Below the pieces are notes generated by a model. The model was not told where the DNA came from and ran no database searches. It saw nothing but the letters and a program-made list of their open reading frames with translations. A program made the position numbers and the translations under genes. A stretch of 64,000 bases of DNA from assembly GCF_019916085.1 (NCBI RefSeq), contig NZ_CP049834.1:1038501-1102500 (forward strand). Reading direction: 5' to 3'. Source of the stretch: Aquirufa lenticrescens. GTDB lineage: Bacteria; Bacteroidota; Bacteroidia; Cytophagales; Spirosomataceae. Shown here piece after piece: positions 15,409 through 31,820 of this stretch. How positions within the stretch are numbered: the first letter of the stretch is position 1; each line of letters starts with the position of its first letter.

Positions 15409-16234
15409 GGATAAATCTGAAAGATTTATCCACAAGCTCGCGCTCTGAATTAAACATTTTTCGCCAAATATGGGCCGCCGGTAATTTCTCGCTAAAGGCC
15501 TCTACCACGAGCCAGCCAGCATAATTTACCTCCTTAATCGACTGCAATACAGACGGCCAGTTCACCTGTCCCTCGCCCAAAATCCCCCGTGTACTCTCCG
15601 ACAATTGAATGTGAGGAGTCAGCTTCGCGATCCGACGAATCGCCTCTGCCGTACTCACTTCCTCGATATTCGCATGGAATGTGTCAAACATAATCTCCAC
15701 ATACGTATGATTTATCTGCTCTACCAGGTTATATAATTCATCCGCACAAGAGACCAAATAGCTCTCGAAACGGTTTAAATATTCTAAACAAAGGGTAATG
15801 TTTTTCGTAGCTGCGTGATCCGCTACCTCCCGAATGCCGGCGATGGACCAGTCGATTTCTTGTTGAGTGGCTTTGGCCCCTGTAAAAACTCCTAAAGCCG
15901 AATGAAATGGCCCAGACAAATAGGGCGATCCTAAAAAAGCCGCCACATCTACTGCTCCTTTTAAATACGCAATCCCCGCCGCTCTGATAGCTGGATCCGG
16001 TGAAATCAAATTCTCCGCAGGCCCCGCAATCGCACAAGCGAAAGGTTGTAAACCCAGCCGATCGACCTCCTTTTTCCAAGCAGACCAATGCGCTAAATCA
16101 ACATTAAATACCGGAATTTCAACGCCTTGATAACCCACCTCTTGAATAAAGGCAAGCTCTGATAATACAGATTCATTCATATCTGGCCCGTAAACGAGCA
16201 GATTCATGGCGATTGGGTTCATAGGTTTAGTCAT
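15395..16234 (-). CDS. Sugar phosphate isomerase/epimerase (TIM barrel, AP endonuclease 2-like)
   Basis: 279 aa. The fold is recognised from QEVGYQGVEIPVF, NITLCLEYLNRFESYLVS, VEIMFDTFHANIEE, PHIQLSESTRGILGEGQVNW and GWLVVEAF, with metal ligands Glu (CLEYLNRFE), Asp/His (FDTFHAN) and Glu (VVEAF). Related enzymes are D-tagatose/psicose 3-epimerases and keto-sugar hydratases. It is the first gene of the three-gene minus operon. The ATG at 16234 lies inside a hairpin-mosaic linker; ATGs at 16222 (MNPIAMNLL) and 16207 are alternatives. The stop codon lies in an ATGGTGA-type repeat. Confidence 0.9.
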   Translation of the reverse strand: MTKPMNPIAMNLLVYGPDMNESVLSELAFIQEVGYQGVEIPVFNVDLAHWSAWKKEVDRLGLQPFACAIAGPAENLISPDPAIRAAGIAYLKGAVDVAAFLGSPYLSGPFHSALGVFTGAKATQQEIDWSIAGIREVADHAATKNITLCLEYLNRFESYLVSCADELYNLVEQINHTYVEIMFDTFHANIEEVSTAEAIRRIAKLTPHIQLSESTRGILGEGQVNWPSVLQSIKEVNYAGWLVVEAFSEKLPAAHIWRKMFNSERELVDKSFRFIHGEW

Positions 16235-16354
16235 TAGTCGCTGCTTCGCAGCTTAGTCGCCTTCGGCTTAGTCGTCACTTCGTGACTTAGTCATTTCGCG
16301 ACGAAGTCGCGAGGTCATCGCTGCGCGATTTAGTCGCTGCTTCGCAGCTTAGTC
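16228..16354. repeat. Hairpin mosaic, left array (TTAGTC linkers on plus strand)
   Basis: Six small palindromes follow each other: GCTGCttcGCAGC (16240), GCCttcGGC (16259), GTCACttcGTGAC (16274), TCGCGACgaaGTCGCGA (16296), ATCGCtgcGCGAT (16317), GCTGCttcGCAGC (16336). They are joined mostly by TTAGTC. Stem sequences differ while loop size (three bases) and linker stay nearly fixed. The array lies directly upstream of, and includes, the ATG of the sugar isomerase gene. Confidence 0.9.
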
Positions 16355-16419
16355 AAAACAGTTTAACAGCTAAATATAAAAGAAATAATTGAAGATATCT
16401 ACCCGGAATGAACAACATA

Positions 16420-16542
16420 GACTGAGACGCAGGCGACTAAGCGACTCCGTCGCGACTAAATCGCACAGCGATGACCAAGCTGCGAAGCAGCGACTAAGGC
16501 GAAGCCGACTAAATCGCGCAGCGATGACTCAGTCCGCAGGAC
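16420..16542. repeat. Hairpin mosaic, right array (GACTAA linkers, inverted orientation)
   Basis: After a degenerate start come GCGACtccGTCGC (16441), ATCGCacaGCGAT (16460), GCTGCgaaGCAGC (16479), GGCgaaGCC (16498), ATCGCgcaGCGAT (16513) and GTCCgcaGGAC (16532). They are joined by GACTAA, GACCAA or GACTCA, the reverse complement of the left array's linker. The GACTCA linker carries the TGA stop of the EamA transporter gene. The 65-base core between the arrays (16355-16419) is AT-rich and must hold any promoter of the isomerase operon. Confidence 0.9.
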
Positions 16543-17410
16543 GTCGCGACAAAAAAGGATGCGCCATCACCGTCAGCACCAACAGACCTGTTCCCCAATA
16601 GAAGGCGGGTTGCATGACTTCTTTTTGGCCAAAAATAAAGACCGCCAACAATATCCCATATACGGGCTCGAGCGTGATCACGAGATTGATCGAAAAAACG
16701 GAGAAAACCTTGTACAAATGGATGGTCTCGGTGTAAGCGTAAACGGTACAAACAACGGCCAAAATCCCGATCCAAAGCCAATCTAGCCCGGCCGGAACGA
16801 AACCAGGCGAACCGCCTAACAGGCCGCTCAGCCAGACGGCGCCGGTGATAATTCCAGCGGCCACCATCTCGTAAACGGTAATCAATTTTGGGTCGTGGGT
16901 GTGGGTATAATTTCCGTTTATGACAGAGAATAATGCTCCGAAAAATCCAGCCCCAATGCCCATCACCAAACCGATCCACTGGCCTGGTTCTACCGAGAAA
17001 ATAATACCCAGGGCAATCACGACTAAGATTCCGAGAAATACTTCAATCTTCGCGATAGGTTTTTTCTTCGCGATGGGCTCTAATATAGAGGTCCAAAAAG
17101 TCTGTGTAGAAAGACCAGCAAGGCACATGGCGACCGTAGAGACTTTGGCAGCACCAAAAAACAATAGCCAGTGAAGCGCAACAAACGCACCATTCAACAG
17201 CCAAATCTTCACAACCGATGCGGGGACCTGAAAAGACTTTTTAGATGCTGCAAGCATCAGCCCTAATCCGGCAGCTGCAATCACACAGCGAAAGAAGACA
17301 ATCGTCAGCGCATTCGCCTCTGTTGCGTTGCCTAGAATAGCGGTAAACGCATACAAAATGACGATAAAATGTATCTTAAAATAGTCGAGAAGCCGAGGAG
17401 CCTGTCTCAT
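16529..17410 (-). CDS. EamA/DMT-family transporter
   Basis: About 293 aa from the ATG at 17410; a GTG at 17443 is also in frame but overlaps the upstream gene. Around ten hydrophobic segments form two EamA repeats (FIVILYAFTAILGNATEANALTI in the first; GAGFFGALFSVINGNYTH opening the second). It is an inner-membrane exporter or permease of small metabolites; the substrate is unknown. The ATG follows the LptG-type stop by one base, so the genes are coupled. The final RRPAD-stop is encoded by the hairpin mosaic. Confidence 0.9.
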   Translation of the reverse strand: MRQAPRLLDYFKIHFIVILYAFTAILGNATEANALTIVFFRCVIAAAGLGLMLAASKKSFQVPASVVKIWLLNGAFVALHWLLFFGAAKVSTVAMCLAGLSTQTFWTSILEPIAKKKPIAKIEVFLGILVVIALGIIFSVEPGQWIGLVMGIGAGFFGALFSVINGNYTHTHDPKLITVYEMVAAGIITGAVWLSGLLGGSPGFVPAGLDWLWIGILAVVCTVYAYTETIHLYKVFSVFSINLVITLEPVYGILLAVFIFGQKEVMQPAFYWGTGLLVLTVMAHPFLSRRPAD

Positions 17411-27806: not shown

Positions 27807-29543
27807 TTAATTAAAAGATGCAAAATCTAGCACCCGTAATTGTAAGGTGCGATTCCCTAAATATTCATTCACTTCCAGATGGTAAACCAGTTTGATGGGC
27901 AAGCGCTGTTCATAGGCAGCACATAATCCGTCATAGAAATCAGCCTTCATCCCAAATCCAACCACCTCTAATCCTCGCTCATCAGGCGTGGAACCCACGT
28001 AAATTTTCAGATGCTCTTCCTTCATGACAAAAGGACTTTTCGTTACAAAAACAGGCCCTGAAACGAAATTTGGCAACATATTACCTGGTCCATAAGGCGA
28101 TAGACGAACCAATAGTTTATCATAAAAAGACAAACTCAAGGCTTCTAAAGGAACCTGTAAATCGACCGGCAAATCCGCCTTAGGCGATATATTCGCTAAC
28201 CCTTCCTGCGCGATTCGCTCAAATTTTTCAATGAATGCCTGCAAATTCTCCGGTTTCAAATGCAAACCTGCCGCGTGCGTGTGCCCACCGAATTGCTCTA
28301 GTAAATCCGCACATTCCTCCAAAGCGTGATGCACATCAAAACCTCGAACGGAACGGGCAGAACCCACTAGTTGACCGTGTGATTCCGTTAAAATAATCGT
28401 GGGTCTGAAATATTGGTCTTGGATCTTGCTCGCTACAATTCCCACCACTCCTTTATGCCAAGCCGGATTAAATAACACCGTACTGCGTGCTGAGAGTAGA
28501 AAATCATTCCCTTCAAACATCGCCAAAGCCTGCGCCACAATCTCCTTCTCCACCACACGGCGATCCAGATTTTGTTGAATCACTGCCTCCGCCAGCGCCT
28601 CCGCCTCCTGATCATCTGCGGCTAGCATCAATTTCACCGCTCCATGCGCATGGTCCATTCGGCCGGCTGCATTAATGATAGGAGAAATAGAGAATACGAT
28701 ATCAGAGATTTGAATGGGCGCTTTTTTCTTCGCCTTTTTCAATAGGTAAGCAAGTCCGGGACTTGGATTGGAACCTAATTTAGCTAAGCCAAAAAAGGCC
28801 AAAACTCGGTTCTCCCCGTTCATTGGTACAATATCCGCTGCGATACTGCAGGCCAAAAGATCCACAGATTCCCATAAAGGATCTTGTTCTAAGTCATTCG
28901 CAATGGCAAAGGCTATCATCAATTTAAATCCAACGCCAGCACCGGTTAATTCTTTAAATGGATAAGGACAATCTTTTCTTTTAGGATCTAAAACCGCAAC
29001 CGCAGCTGGAATAGTTGCCTCCGGTAAGTGGTGATCACAGATGATAAAATCAATTCCATTTTCGTTGCACCAAGCCACGCGATCGTGGGCTTTAATACCG
29101 CAGTCAAGAGAGATGATTAAAGTATAATCATTGTCTTTCGCATATTGAATTCCTGCCTGCGATACGCCATAGCCTTCCGCATAGCGATCCGGAATATAAT
29201 AGTCGCAATCCGCGCCTAAAATACCTGCGAGATAACTATAAACGAGGGTAACAGCCGTCGTACCATCCACGTCATAATCGCCGTAAATCAGGATTTTTTC
29301 TCCAGATTCTAGTGCCAGACCAAGACGTTCCACCGCTTTGTCCATATCCTTCATCAGGAATGGGTCGTGTAGTTGGCTAATTTCTGGAACCATGAAGTCC
29401 TTTACTTCTTGGAAAGTCTTAATTCCTCGTGATACGAGTAAGGACAAAAAATAGGGATTCTTTAAGCCCAAAGCCTCCCCTAATGCCTCCACCTCCGCTG
29501 CCGGCGGTGCGGGCACGTATTTCCAATTCTTTTTTGGCTCCAT
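27807..29543 (-). CDS. recJ: Single-stranded-DNA-specific exonuclease RecJ
   Basis: 578 aa. A 5'-3' exonuclease for recombination and mismatch repair. Motifs: IYGDYDVDGTTAV (DHH motif I), ISLDCGIKAHD, the DHH itself (FIICDHHLPEA), LTGAGVGFKL, then DHHA1 motifs VGSARSVRGFDVHHALEEC and FGGHTHAAGLHL, and a C-terminal OB fold with the ending NRTLQLRVLDFASF. The gene starts one base after the OmpA-family stop, so it is expressed in a cell-envelope operon, an uncommon partner for a repair gene. Confidence 0.97.
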   Translation of the reverse strand: MEPKKNWKYVPAPPAAEVEALGEALGLKNPYFLSLLVSRGIKTFQEVKDFMVPEISQLHDPFLMKDMDKAVERLGLALESGEKILIYGDYDVDGTTAVTLVYSYLAGILGADCDYYIPDRYAEGYGVSQAGIQYAKDNDYTLIISLDCGIKAHDRVAWCNENGIDFIICDHHLPEATIPAAVAVLDPKRKDCPYPFKELTGAGVGFKLMIAFAIANDLEQDPLWESVDLLACSIAADIVPMNGENRVLAFFGLAKLGSNPSPGLAYLLKKAKKKAPIQISDIVFSISPIINAAGRMDHAHGAVKLMLAADDQEAEALAEAVIQQNLDRRVVEKEIVAQALAMFEGNDFLLSARSTVLFNPAWHKGVVGIVASKIQDQYFRPTIILTESHGQLVGSARSVRGFDVHHALEECADLLEQFGGHTHAAGLHLKPENLQAFIEKFERIAQEGLANISPKADLPVDLQVPLEALSLSFYDKLLVRLSPYGPGNMLPNFVSGPVFVTKSPFVMKEEHLKIYVGSTPDERGLEVVGFGMKADFYDGLCAAYEQRLPIKLVYHLEVNEYLGNRTLQLRVLDFASFN

Positions 29544-29544
29544 C

Positions 29545-31242
29545 TTATAAAATTTCTATTTCTACGCGGCGGTTGATTTGGCGTCCTTCCTCGGTGGCAT
29601 TATCCGCCTTTGGTTTCGACTTACCATAGCCTTTCGCTTTAATTCTCGCTTGATCAATTCCCCCTTTCAGTAGGTTTTCCTTCACCGCATTCGCCCGCTC
29701 TAATGACAATTTATTATTGATCTCATCTGATCCCGTGTTATCCGTGTGCCCACTAATTTCGATGACCAAAGCTGTATTCTCTTTCATCACCTGAAGGATC
29801 CGCTTCAATTCAGGCTCGGATTCAGGCTTTAAAGTCGCCTTTCCTAGGTCAAAGAATAAGTTATTAATCGTCGCCGTATTTCCTTTTACAAGTGGTACCA
29901 TCGACAGGTCGCGGTCATCTAATTCCAAATAGCGCCCGCGGGCCGTACTCAAATCGAGATTAATAGAAGTGGGAATTAGACCTTTAGCCTTCGCCGTAAT
30001 CCCGTAGTTCTTTCCATAGGGAAGGACTAGTTTGTATTTACCCGTCGTAGGATCCGGCTTTGCTTGACCTAACACTTTTCCGTTTGATAGGTCTTCGTAT
30101 GTCACCGAAGCATCCTCCGGTACCTTACCTGTTTGCTGATTTAGCACTGTCCCAGACAATAAAACCACCGGGTCAGATTCTTGGGAGGTTACTGAACGCG
30201 TAGATGAAGGGCCAAAACGAGTATCAGCCATCGAGGCATCTGCAGGCGCATTGCCTATTTTCCCACCGGACGTATTTCCTCCGGACTCATTGACTGAGCC
30301 GGGGCCTCCCGGCGACTCTTTGACTGAGCCTCCGGAAGCTTCGCTGCCCGGAGGCGACTCGACTGAAAGTCGAAATATATCCTTCTTCCCCAGTGACCCC
30401 TTCCCAGACATAAAATAAGCATAATCGCCCTTTGCCGCGATGGAATAATAGGCATCGTATTCATCTGTGTTGATGGGAGAGCCTAAGTTTTGAGGTTTAC
30501 GCCAGTGTTGCCAAGTATCATCTAGACGGCGAGTTAAGTAAATATCTTGACTCCCTTGACCACCCGGTCGGTCCGATGAAAAATAGAGTGTCTTCCCATC
30601 AGCGGATAAAAAGGGGGTAGTCTCTGAGTATTTCGTATTAATCTCATCGCCTAATTCAAGCGGTCGCGTCCAGCGCCCATCCTCGAAAAAACTGATGTAT
30701 AAATCGTCATCTTCGCTGTTCTTCTTACGGGCAAAAGCCAGTAAAATCGCCTTGCCATCCATGGTCAAATAACCATATTCATTCTTCCCCTTACTCATTT
30801 GTTCGTAGCCCGGGATGTCGACTTTGACGGGAACGGTCCAGCCGGCAGTCGTTTTATTCGAGATGGAGAACCCACGTGTTTCATAGGTGCCATTGACATA
30901 GGCGCCTTTTAAGAGGATTGTTTGGCCGTCTGGCGAAATCGATAAAATGGTGTTGTATTGGTCGCGATTTAGAACCTCGGAAAGTCGTCTTGCGGTGCTC
31001 CAGGTATCTCCTACTTTCTCCGAGAACCAAATATCCTGGGAACCCGAAATAGTTTCAGAGCCTTTCACTCCGTAGCGATTAGCGGGATGGTTTTTACGTC
31101 CGAAATACAGCGTTCTTCCATCCGGTGAAATCACCGGATTCAATTCGGAAAATTCTGAATTCACGGCAGAACCTAAGTTCTCCGGGGCTTTTTGGGCCAT
31201 CAGAGATCCCGACATCAACAAGAAGAACAACAGCTTTCTCAT
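29545..31242 (-). CDS. OmpA-family protein with PD40 propeller repeats and a hairpin-encoded linker
   Basis: About 565 aa from the ATG at 31242, which overlaps the LOG gene stop as ATGA. Signal peptide MRKLLFFLLMSGSLMA. Residues 30-290 hold WD40-like PD40 repeats (NPVISPDGRTLYFGRK, PFLSADGKTLYFSSDRPGG). A Gly/Ser/Pro linker spans about 295-345, then a CNA-B-like domain, and a C-terminal OmpA peptidoglycan-binding domain (ISGHTDNTGSDEINNKLSLERA). The linker DNA (30271-30373) is made of palindromes with GACT-type linkers. The protein likely ties the outer membrane to peptidoglycan. Confidence 0.93.
   Translation of the reverse strand: MRKLLFFLLMSGSLMAQKAPENLGSAVNSEFSELNPVISPDGRTLYFGRKNHPANRYGVKGSETISGSQDIWFSEKVGDTWSTARRLSEVLNRDQYNTILSISPDGQTILLKGAYVNGTYETRGFSISNKTTAGWTVPVKVDIPGYEQMSKGKNEYGYLTMDGKAILLAFARKKNSEDDDLYISFFEDGRWTRPLELGDEINTKYSETTPFLSADGKTLYFSSDRPGGQGSQDIYLTRRLDDTWQHWRKPQNLGSPINTDEYDAYYSIAAKGDYAYFMSGKGSLGKKDIFRLSVESPPGSEASGGSVKESPGGPGSVNESGGNTSGGKIGNAPADASMADTRFGPSSTRSVTSQESDPVVLLSGTVLNQQTGKVPEDASVTYEDLSNGKVLGQAKPDPTTGKYKLVLPYGKNYGITAKAKGLIPTSINLDLSTARGRYLELDDRDLSMVPLVKGNTATINNLFFDLGKATLKPESEPELKRILQVMKENTALVIEISGHTDNTGSDEINNKLSLERANAVKENLLKGGIDQARIKAKGYGKSKPKADNATEEGRQINRRVEIEIL
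30271..30373. repeat. In-frame hairpin mosaic inside the OmpA-family gene
   Basis: Palindromes GCCGGGgcctCCCGGC (30298-30313), GCCTCCGG/CCGGAGGC (30328-30355, 12-base loop) and TCGACTgaaAGTCGA (30359-30373) are joined by two near-identical 14-mers, GACTCATTGACTGA and GACTCTTTGACTGA. Linker type and the GAA loop recall the intergenic mosaic at 16228-16542. The reading frame stays open and encodes Ser/Gly/Pro/Glu-rich sequence. Confidence 0.8.
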
Positions 31243-31820
31243 CCCACGTAAATCCACTTCTTTTCCATCTTCTCTGGCTCATAGGCCATGATCCAATCCG
31301 CTAATTTTTCTGGATCTGATTCTACTTGCATGGCATCCATATTAGGCTGCTTTAAGAATCCTTCATCCACCATGTGTTGAATTTGTTTCAATTGGTGGTC
31401 AAAATACCCATTGATATTAAACACCGAAACCGGCATCTCGTGCAAATCTAATTGCTTCCAAGTAAGGATTTCGAACAATTCGTCCAACGTCCCAAAGCCG
31501 CCCGGCATCGCAATCACGCCATCCGCCATGTCAGCCATCAAAGCCTTACGCGTGTGCATCGTATCAGTCACGTGCAGTTCTGGCAAGCCCTTGTGCTTCA
31601 CTTCCCAAGGCTCCATGAATTGAGGAATCACCCCAATCGCGTGACCGCCTAAACGTAAGAACTCATCGGCTAATACACCCATCAATCCCACACTTCCTGC
31701 GCCAAAAATCACTTGGCAACCATGGGCATGCAAAGCCTGCGCTAATTTCACTACTTGTTCCGCATAAACGGGGTTGTGGCCTTTCGAAGACCCACAATAA
31801 ATCAATATTTTTTTAGACAT
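31239..31820 (-). CDS. LOG-family protein (TIGR00730, cytokinin riboside phosphate phosphoribohydrolase-like)
   Basis: 193 aa. The Rossmann-like fold carries YCGSSKGHNPVY, IFGAGSVGLMGVLADEFL, MHTRKALMADMADGVIAMPGGFGTLDELFE and LTWKQL. The PGGxGTxxE motif is the hallmark of LOG/lysine-decarboxylase-like proteins, which hydrolyse nucleoside 5'-monophosphates to base and ribose phosphate. It overlaps the upstream SDR gene by eight bases and the downstream OmpA gene by four. Confidence 0.95.
   Translation of the reverse strand: MSKKILIYCGSSKGHNPVYAEQVVKLAQALHAHGCQVIFGAGSVGLMGVLADEFLRLGGHAIGVIPQFMEPWEVKHKGLPELHVTDTMHTRKALMADMADGVIAMPGGFGTLDELFEILTWKQLDLHEMPVSVFNINGYFDHQLKQIQHMVDEGFLKQPNMDAMQVESDPEKLADWIMAYEPEKMEKKWIYVG

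Follow-up and report, generated by a model that had tools for sequence, protein, structure and literature searches.

Several kinds of palindromic repeat that lie near or inside genes have been described, and we give them here as set out in the cited parts of the respective papers. Rickettsia palindromic elements (RPEs) are about 150 bp long, comprise ten families and code for a conserved peptide (PMC10969869). REPs and BIMEs are short hairpins that carry a tag beside the stem, often occur in opposite orientation and lie mostly downstream of genes, with some inside them (PMC3733652). In mitochondrial genomes, double-hairpin and repetitive hairpin elements form small modules that vary among relatives and sometimes sit inside genes (PMC2800124, PMC7218506), and mitochondrial genes of Nematomorpha carry coding inverted repeats of up to 284 bp whose arms encode conserved residues, with template switching as a possible mechanism (PMC6649704). 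In-frame palindromic repeats are thus already known from Rickettsia, and translated inverted repeats from some mitochondrial genomes. The present case is a group of ten related genomes from a free-living freshwater lineage that hold both intergenic hairpin arrays and in-frame units, which can be compared unit by unit, with stems that covary. Our literature search, which left subscription journals mostly outside its range, returned no description of this Aquirufa repeat, and a word search of the main text of three Aquirufa species papers (PMC10821818, PMC11861422, PMC9163014) gave no words built on repeat-, palindrom- or hairpin-.

The hairpin array in a PD40/OmpA linker

The window, by which we mean the whole 64,000-nt stretch of Aquirufa lenticrescens DNA that was analysed, contains a minus-strand gene (29545..31257) whose product is 570 amino acids long counted from a GTG, with an ATG at codon 6 as a possible alternative start. 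Pfam recognises PD40 (E 1e-21) and OmpA (E 5.4e-23, residues 468-563) in the translation, and the linker peptide, ESPPGSEASGGSVKESPGGPGSVNESGGN, is encoded by an array of hairpins. The array-bearing genome (G000) is a single contig of 2.5 Mb, and its same-genus relatives include Aquirufa antheringensis 30S-ANTBAC.

Read along the coding strand, the array consists of TCGACT-TTC-AGTCGA, a 28-nt palindrome, TCAGTCAAAGAGTC, a 16-nt palindrome, TCAGTCAATGAGTC and two 15-nt units, all of them annotated on the minus strand. The first, seen by eye at the upstream edge of the linker (30359..30373; TCGACT-GAA-AGTCGA on the plus strand), is a 6-bp hairpin with a GAA loop that makes up the codons R-L-S-V-E. 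It is followed by the 28-nt core 2 (30328..30355; GCCTCCGG...CCGGAGGC), for which palindrome and folding analysis gave an 8-bp outer stem, and which holds an imperfect inner hairpin with a GAA loop on the coding strand. Linker word 2 (30314..30327; GACTCTTTGACTGA on the plus strand), coding for Ser-Val-Lys-Glu-Ser, separates this core from the 16-nt core 1 (30298..30313; GCCGGG-GCCT-CCCGGC), whose 6-bp stem comes from the palindrome and recoding analysis. Linker word 1 (30284..30297; GACTCATTGACTGA on the plus strand) codes for Ser-Val-Asn-Glu-Ser, and the array ends in two adjacent short units (30260..30289), one of them GAGTCCGGAGGAAAT-like on the coding strand, which form a direct repeat (spacing 15, 73% alike) of a related type without the long stem; GAGTCCGGAGG-type words of this short-unit kind are present in the orthologues and between genes as well. 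A preliminary description of this DNA had given palindromes of 6, 8 and 6 bp together with two near-identical 14-mers, and its coordinates and words are correct; it had also related the array to an intergenic mosaic at 16.2-16.5 kb, and the 14-mer, at up to one mismatch, does join intergenic hairpins too. The array is presumably translated. A known structured RNA was rejected for the gene, as no Rfam family matched 29500-31300 up to E 1.

Chance palindromes from Gly/Pro codons can be rejected when the cores are taken together; for individual linkers and cores this holds only in part. Across the 18 cores that lie between linker words in nine orthologues, the outer stems sum to 90 bp, where 2000 synonymous recodings reach 46 bp at most, a significance that is overstated because the cores are related by descent and hence non-independent, and mirrored positions are paired in 111 of 148 cases (maximum 99 in the recodings). 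Taken singly, four cores fall below 5% of recodings, nine at 5-8% and five at 10-25%. Of 200 shuffles of the stretch 30278-30370, 198 fold less well than the stretch itself. Four of nine mosaic linkers have a better whole-linker folding energy than codon draws (L001, 2/200; L006, 0/200; L007, 4/200; L008, 1/200, which weakens to 17/200 under codon permutation); L002, L003, L004, L005 and L009 show no such excess (35-84 of 200), nor do any of the six linkers from other lineages, the mosaic locus L018 and the other locus L010 lying outside the test.

Intergenic units and their covarying stems

When at most one mismatch is allowed, the 2.5-Mb genome has 15 matches to the 14-mer and a single one to a reversed control pattern. 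Two of the 15 are those in the PD40/OmpA gene, and another falls in an ORF unrelated to it (L081). The other twelve stand amid hairpins in DNA that has no long ORF, and include a site at 1,021,774 with a run of 27-nt units. Most intergenic units have GACTAA as their linker word, and some share GACTCWTTGACTRA with the PD40/OmpA gene; to judge by this common word, intergenic and in-frame arrays are one kind of unit. The mosaic in the window has a left half in which hairpins are linked by TTAGTC (16226..16354, minus strand) and a right half in which they are linked by GACTAA (16420..16545, plus strand). Among 15 groups in 14 sources from the same genome, nine hold both orientations, and in eight of these the TTAGTC units lie to the left of the GACTAA units, head to head around a spacer (16226-16545 of the window, L078, L108, L109, L136, L138, L139 and L140, with L105 as the exception), so that whole sites are large inverted repeats built of small ones. 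On each strand, the linker word has a stop codon inside it (TAG, TAA).

All 13-nt cores in the unselected listings were counted. Of the 36 listed for G000, which come from the forward strand of its first 1.2 Mb, 33 are perfectly palindromic, as are 43 of the 50 listed for G019; of the ten imperfect ones, seven keep four of five pairs and three keep nought to one. An earlier count drew on a partly selected set, namely three of 30 listed loci (L105, L108, L109) and six of eight named stretches (L135-L140), and in these stretches, partly chosen as hairpin-like, GACTAA...GACTNA enclosed perfect arms in 9 of 9 cases at a spacing of 9 nt, 0 of 2 at 10, 2 of 3 at 11, 46 of 50 at 13, 1 of 1 at 14, 1 of 1 at 16 and 0 of 3 at 21. 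It was because of this selection that the 13-nt cores were recounted from the unselected listings, with a similar outcome.

The cores comprise 31 distinct sequences among 50 in the partly selected set and 20 among 36 in the G000 listing, and covariation was measured on distinct cores. For the 20 from G000, misses included, 96.0% of cells are paired against 66.7% in shuffles, 35 cells are altered on both sides against 9.7, and covariation reaches 0.885 against 0.284 in shuffles and at most 0.183 in slid controls; none of 500 shuffles reaches any of the three values. Two further counts in this set show no excess over shuffles: pairs that carry double changes (206 of 500) and pair types (258 of 500). 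For the 31 distinct cores of the partly selected set, the corresponding values are 98.7%, 56 cells and 0.900.

On the GACTAA strand, the loop is closed by a C-G pair in 34 of 36 copies in G000 and 46 of 50 in G019, and it has the sequence GNA in 28 and 35 of these copies, respectively. GNA loops closed by G-C (C-GNA-G) form unusually stable, nuclease-resistant DNA minihairpins, as described in the cited part of PMC4686876, and their occurrence on the GACTAA strand is a hint that single-stranded DNA may be the relevant, maintained form. A folding program gives equal energy for both strands of a hairpin, so this strand preference rests on the loop letters together with the published work, and the 28-nt OmpA core of G000, which has its GAA loop on the SVKES strand, runs contrary to the intergenic rule.

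The intergenic pattern is commonest in a single branch of the genus. GACTAAN{9,17}GACT counts are 61-185 in exactly ten genomes, which we call the mosaic lineage, and 7-37 in the other 28. The reversed control gives 31-104 over all 38 genomes and exceeds the pattern in G030 (74 against 61), and a looser pattern, rejected as a measure of abundance, gave 353 sites in G000 against 410 for its control; the enrichment is accordingly one between genomes only. Searched with up to two mismatches in 291 genomes of the order, one unit matched only G000; other unit types lay beyond the reach of this search, and Aquirufa was otherwise represented in the draw by six genomes, none of which matched and none of which belongs to the remaining nine of the mosaic lineage. 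The cited part of PMC10821818 describes an A. antheringensis branch whose genomes are around 2.5 Mb, and this branch presumably corresponds to the mosaic lineage. Words of the GACTAATTCCCTTCGGACT type recur in G006, a genome outside that lineage, and may be a short repeat of a related kind.

Variation at orthologous sites

OmpA loci were compared from 30 genomes of the genus, ten of the mosaic lineage and 20 of the other 28. The 14-nt word is found in nine of the ten and in none of the 20; the linkers of these 20 are either acidic or rich in proline, and most are shorter. The tenth orthologue of the mosaic lineage (G002), ended by a contig edge, has GAGTC and shorter words only. Among nine orthologues of this lineage, the 657-nt 3' flank is free of gaps in all 36 pairs, while the linkers range from 123 to 192 nt (41-64 codons) and differ in their hairpins. 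One close comparison is that of G007 with G023, the latter truncated at its 5' end, in which the flanks are 98.5% (over the 528 nt available in G023) and 96.5% identical and the linkers measure 192 and 123 nt. The 69-nt difference is made up of a 27-nt and a 42-nt unit bounded by the linker word; the two linkers also differ by one substitution within the word and by further substitutions elsewhere. Cores in the orthologues are 13, 16 or 28 nt long and, with the 14-nt word, give units of 27, 30 or 42 nt, so every unit preserves the frame. The longer cores look like a second hairpin nested in the loop of a first one, as where GCCTCC-TGGC-GGAGGC in G007 stands against GCCTCC-GGGCAGCGAAGCTGCT-GGAGGC in G014.

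At the upstream edge, the hairpin CGACT-TTC-AGTCG is present in seven of ten genomes and one base off in G023, and in G021 and G014 the same codons have other bases and no palindrome at unchanged length, which looks like a rewriting of the arms rather than an insertion, its direction being unpolarised. A clean empty site differing by nothing else was not found among the orthologues compared, and we use insertion here for differences in unit number and for presence or absence by lineage only. The preliminary description had proposed to align orthologues for the presence or absence of an in-frame insertion and to look for further in-frame copies, and had named equal-length linkers without palindromes, or drift at the level of codons, as results that would speak against mobility. 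Neither of the latter was found among the orthologues; whole in-frame units differ beside an intact 3' flank, all 20 orthologues from other lineages are without the word, and further copies exist in a second gene.

That gene encodes an outer-membrane barrel protein (Pfam OMP_b-brl_2). In G007 it contains ...SPLRGAVKESSQSDLVKESEVRSPES..., with two in-frame hairpins, each followed by a linker word, and at the same place G012 and G014 each have one hairpin of this kind with degenerate words. An in-frame CAGT-rich repeat, similar by eye to another intergenic repeat, occupies the site in G000, G021 and G030, and G002 has GAGTCCGGAG-type repeats; no repeat is obvious in G019 and G027, the sequence is a different one in G005, G009, G015 and G017, and G023 gave no match. 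At L184, L185 and L186, a CAGTCGGCAGT-type repeat lies in frame where relatives have hairpins. Different repeat types at one linker in different species suggest that linkers are invaded recurrently.

A histidine-kinase linker (L170) was considered as a third in-frame locus and kept as no more than a lead: it has similar words, no clear palindrome and a near-constant length; the comparison covers six of twelve loci, the other six being without a motif match. In this kinase-receiver linker (L170, L211-L217), CAGTCAATGAGTCAGAGAGTC resembles the linker word, which may be a remnant or chance.

Arrays between genes vary likewise. By eye, the 16.2-16.5 kb mosaic has the same linkers and flanks in G000 and G019 with different hairpins at several positions; G021 diverges further, and G012 has only the left half. 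In the orthologous 460 nt, also by eye, G002, G007, G014, G023 and G027 have no hairpin array and carry other wordy repeats; at L125, L127, L128, L129 and L134, TACTGACTACTGTC, AATGGTAAATGG, AGAGTAGAGA and CATAAAGAATAAAG stand in place of hairpin arrays. Downstream of the pyruvate dehydrogenase E1 gene, arrays are present in G000, G021, G007, G012 and G019 (L195, L196, L197, L201 and L202) and start at the stop codon TAG, which overlaps TAGTC (TAGGC in L202, from G019). G023, G002, G030 and G009 have no array after this gene, and their stop codon is TAA; G005 and G015 were unmatched in this comparison, and G014 and G027 have no clear orthologue. The site is not a clean empty one, as the downstream sequence is partly different, and G019 against G002 is the cleanest pair.

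Possible mechanism and relation to known systems

The units are modular, palindromic by compensation, bound to one lineage and open in frame between conserved domains. The linker DNA is, in our judgement, probably a translated array of a lineage-specific repeat, each unit a hairpin with a fixed word, that turns over in DNA synthesis and can be explained without a protein function. Units would be gained, lost and exchanged while DNA is synthesised: slippage or recombination between the repeated linker words would remove or add whole blocks of hairpin and linker, and fold-back template switching within a hairpin would rewrite or perfect its arms, so that stems vary and yet stay complementary. 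Template switching is described as homogenising inverted-repeat arms in yeast coding DNA in the cited part of PMC8604942. In coding DNA only the frame-keeping blocks of 27, 30 and 42 nt would survive, and they would persist where the protein tolerates them, here in the segment that joins the propeller to the OmpA domain. Each process has its limit, in that slippage gives the number of blocks, not the origin of new stems, and template switching perfects arms, not their spread to new sites. Turnover is what we infer from the comparison, in which the direction, gain or loss, is unpolarised for most units.

More tentatively, the array may represent a class of repeat defined by its fold, in which any short stem that is closed as C-GNA-G on single-stranded DNA and has GACTAA beside it would act as a module for copying, exchange and rewriting. 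Such a repeat would have spread in one Aquirufa lineage and could be translated where its length preserves the frame. We regard this as possible and hold it with reserve; if it is true, protein linkers would be built from selfish hairpins.

A true mobile element, in which a dedicated but unrecognised enzyme moves single-stranded hairpins that have the word at their sides, and in-frame arrays arise as RPE-like insertions, seems to us unlikely. It would fit the presence and absence of arrays at orthologous sites with related flanks, their confinement to one lineage of the genus and the finding of copies in a pair of unrelated genes as well as at many places between genes, but nothing is conserved beyond the linker word. 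The Y1 transposase/RAYT family PF01797 was found at E 1e-3 in none of the ten mosaic genomes against 12 of the 28 others, several of these assemblies being incomplete, and is rejected as the driver; reverse transcriptase (PF00078), in three of ten against two of 28, shows no association. An enzyme whose domain goes unrecognised could nevertheless account for everything. The genome itself has a PF00078 domain at G000:C1:1580154-1580918, which across the genus is unlinked to the repeats.

We consider it improbable that the linkers are a selected protein feature, their variability helping the cell and the DNA repeat serving as its generator. Both affected genes encode cell-envelope proteins, and linker length varies beside a constant 3' flank; intergenic arrays, however, vary in the same way without any protein, and a linker beside an OmpA domain that binds peptidoglycan would be expected to lie in the periplasm and hence to be hidden. 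Most improbable is a low-complexity linker evolving by codon-level slippage, with palindromes as a by-product of GGN/CCN codons, for although the segment is rich in Gly/Ser/Pro, five of nine linkers fold no better than codon draws and 14 of 18 cores are singly not below 5%, the summed stems exceed those of all 2000 synonymous recodings, the 14-nt word recurs between genes, which already disfavours it, G007 and G023 differ by two whole units, and all 20 linkers of other lineages are without the word.

The reading of the array as a translated, lineage-specific repeat places it beside several known systems. The preliminary description had seen in it an element that invades coding DNA as RPEs do; the part of this that stands is that intergenic and in-frame copies are the same kind of unit, and the part that does not is membership among the RPEs. 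Like RPEs, the Aquirufa units are palindromic repeats in frame inside otherwise conserved genes, here two with alignable flanks, and would be translated as protein. Unlike them, they are 15-42 nt long, with free stems and only 6- to 14-nt words and the fold in common; a conserved sequence or peptide of the roughly 150-bp RPE type is absent among the units compared, and with only word and fold kept, copying and inserting one conserved element does not describe the data. REPs and BIMEs, compared by description, are similarly short hairpins with a word beside the stem and opposite orientations, but REPs are sorted by GTAG/CGTC tags, whereas the Aquirufa word is GACTAA/TTAGTC, the stems are unconserved and the ten mosaic genomes lack a RAYT (PF01797). 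The mitochondrial hairpin elements, also set beside the Aquirufa units by description, share with them small hairpin modules that are patchy among relatives, and differ in being organellar and in their proposed routes of transposition. We place the Aquirufa units with short palindromic repeats able to enter genes, outside the RPEs, and they allow one to ask how hairpin repeats arise, spread, stay palindromic and turn into protein sequence. Nematomorpha mitochondrial genes likewise keep inverted repeats within translated sequence, whereas the arms in Aquirufa are short and belong to a linker of variable length.
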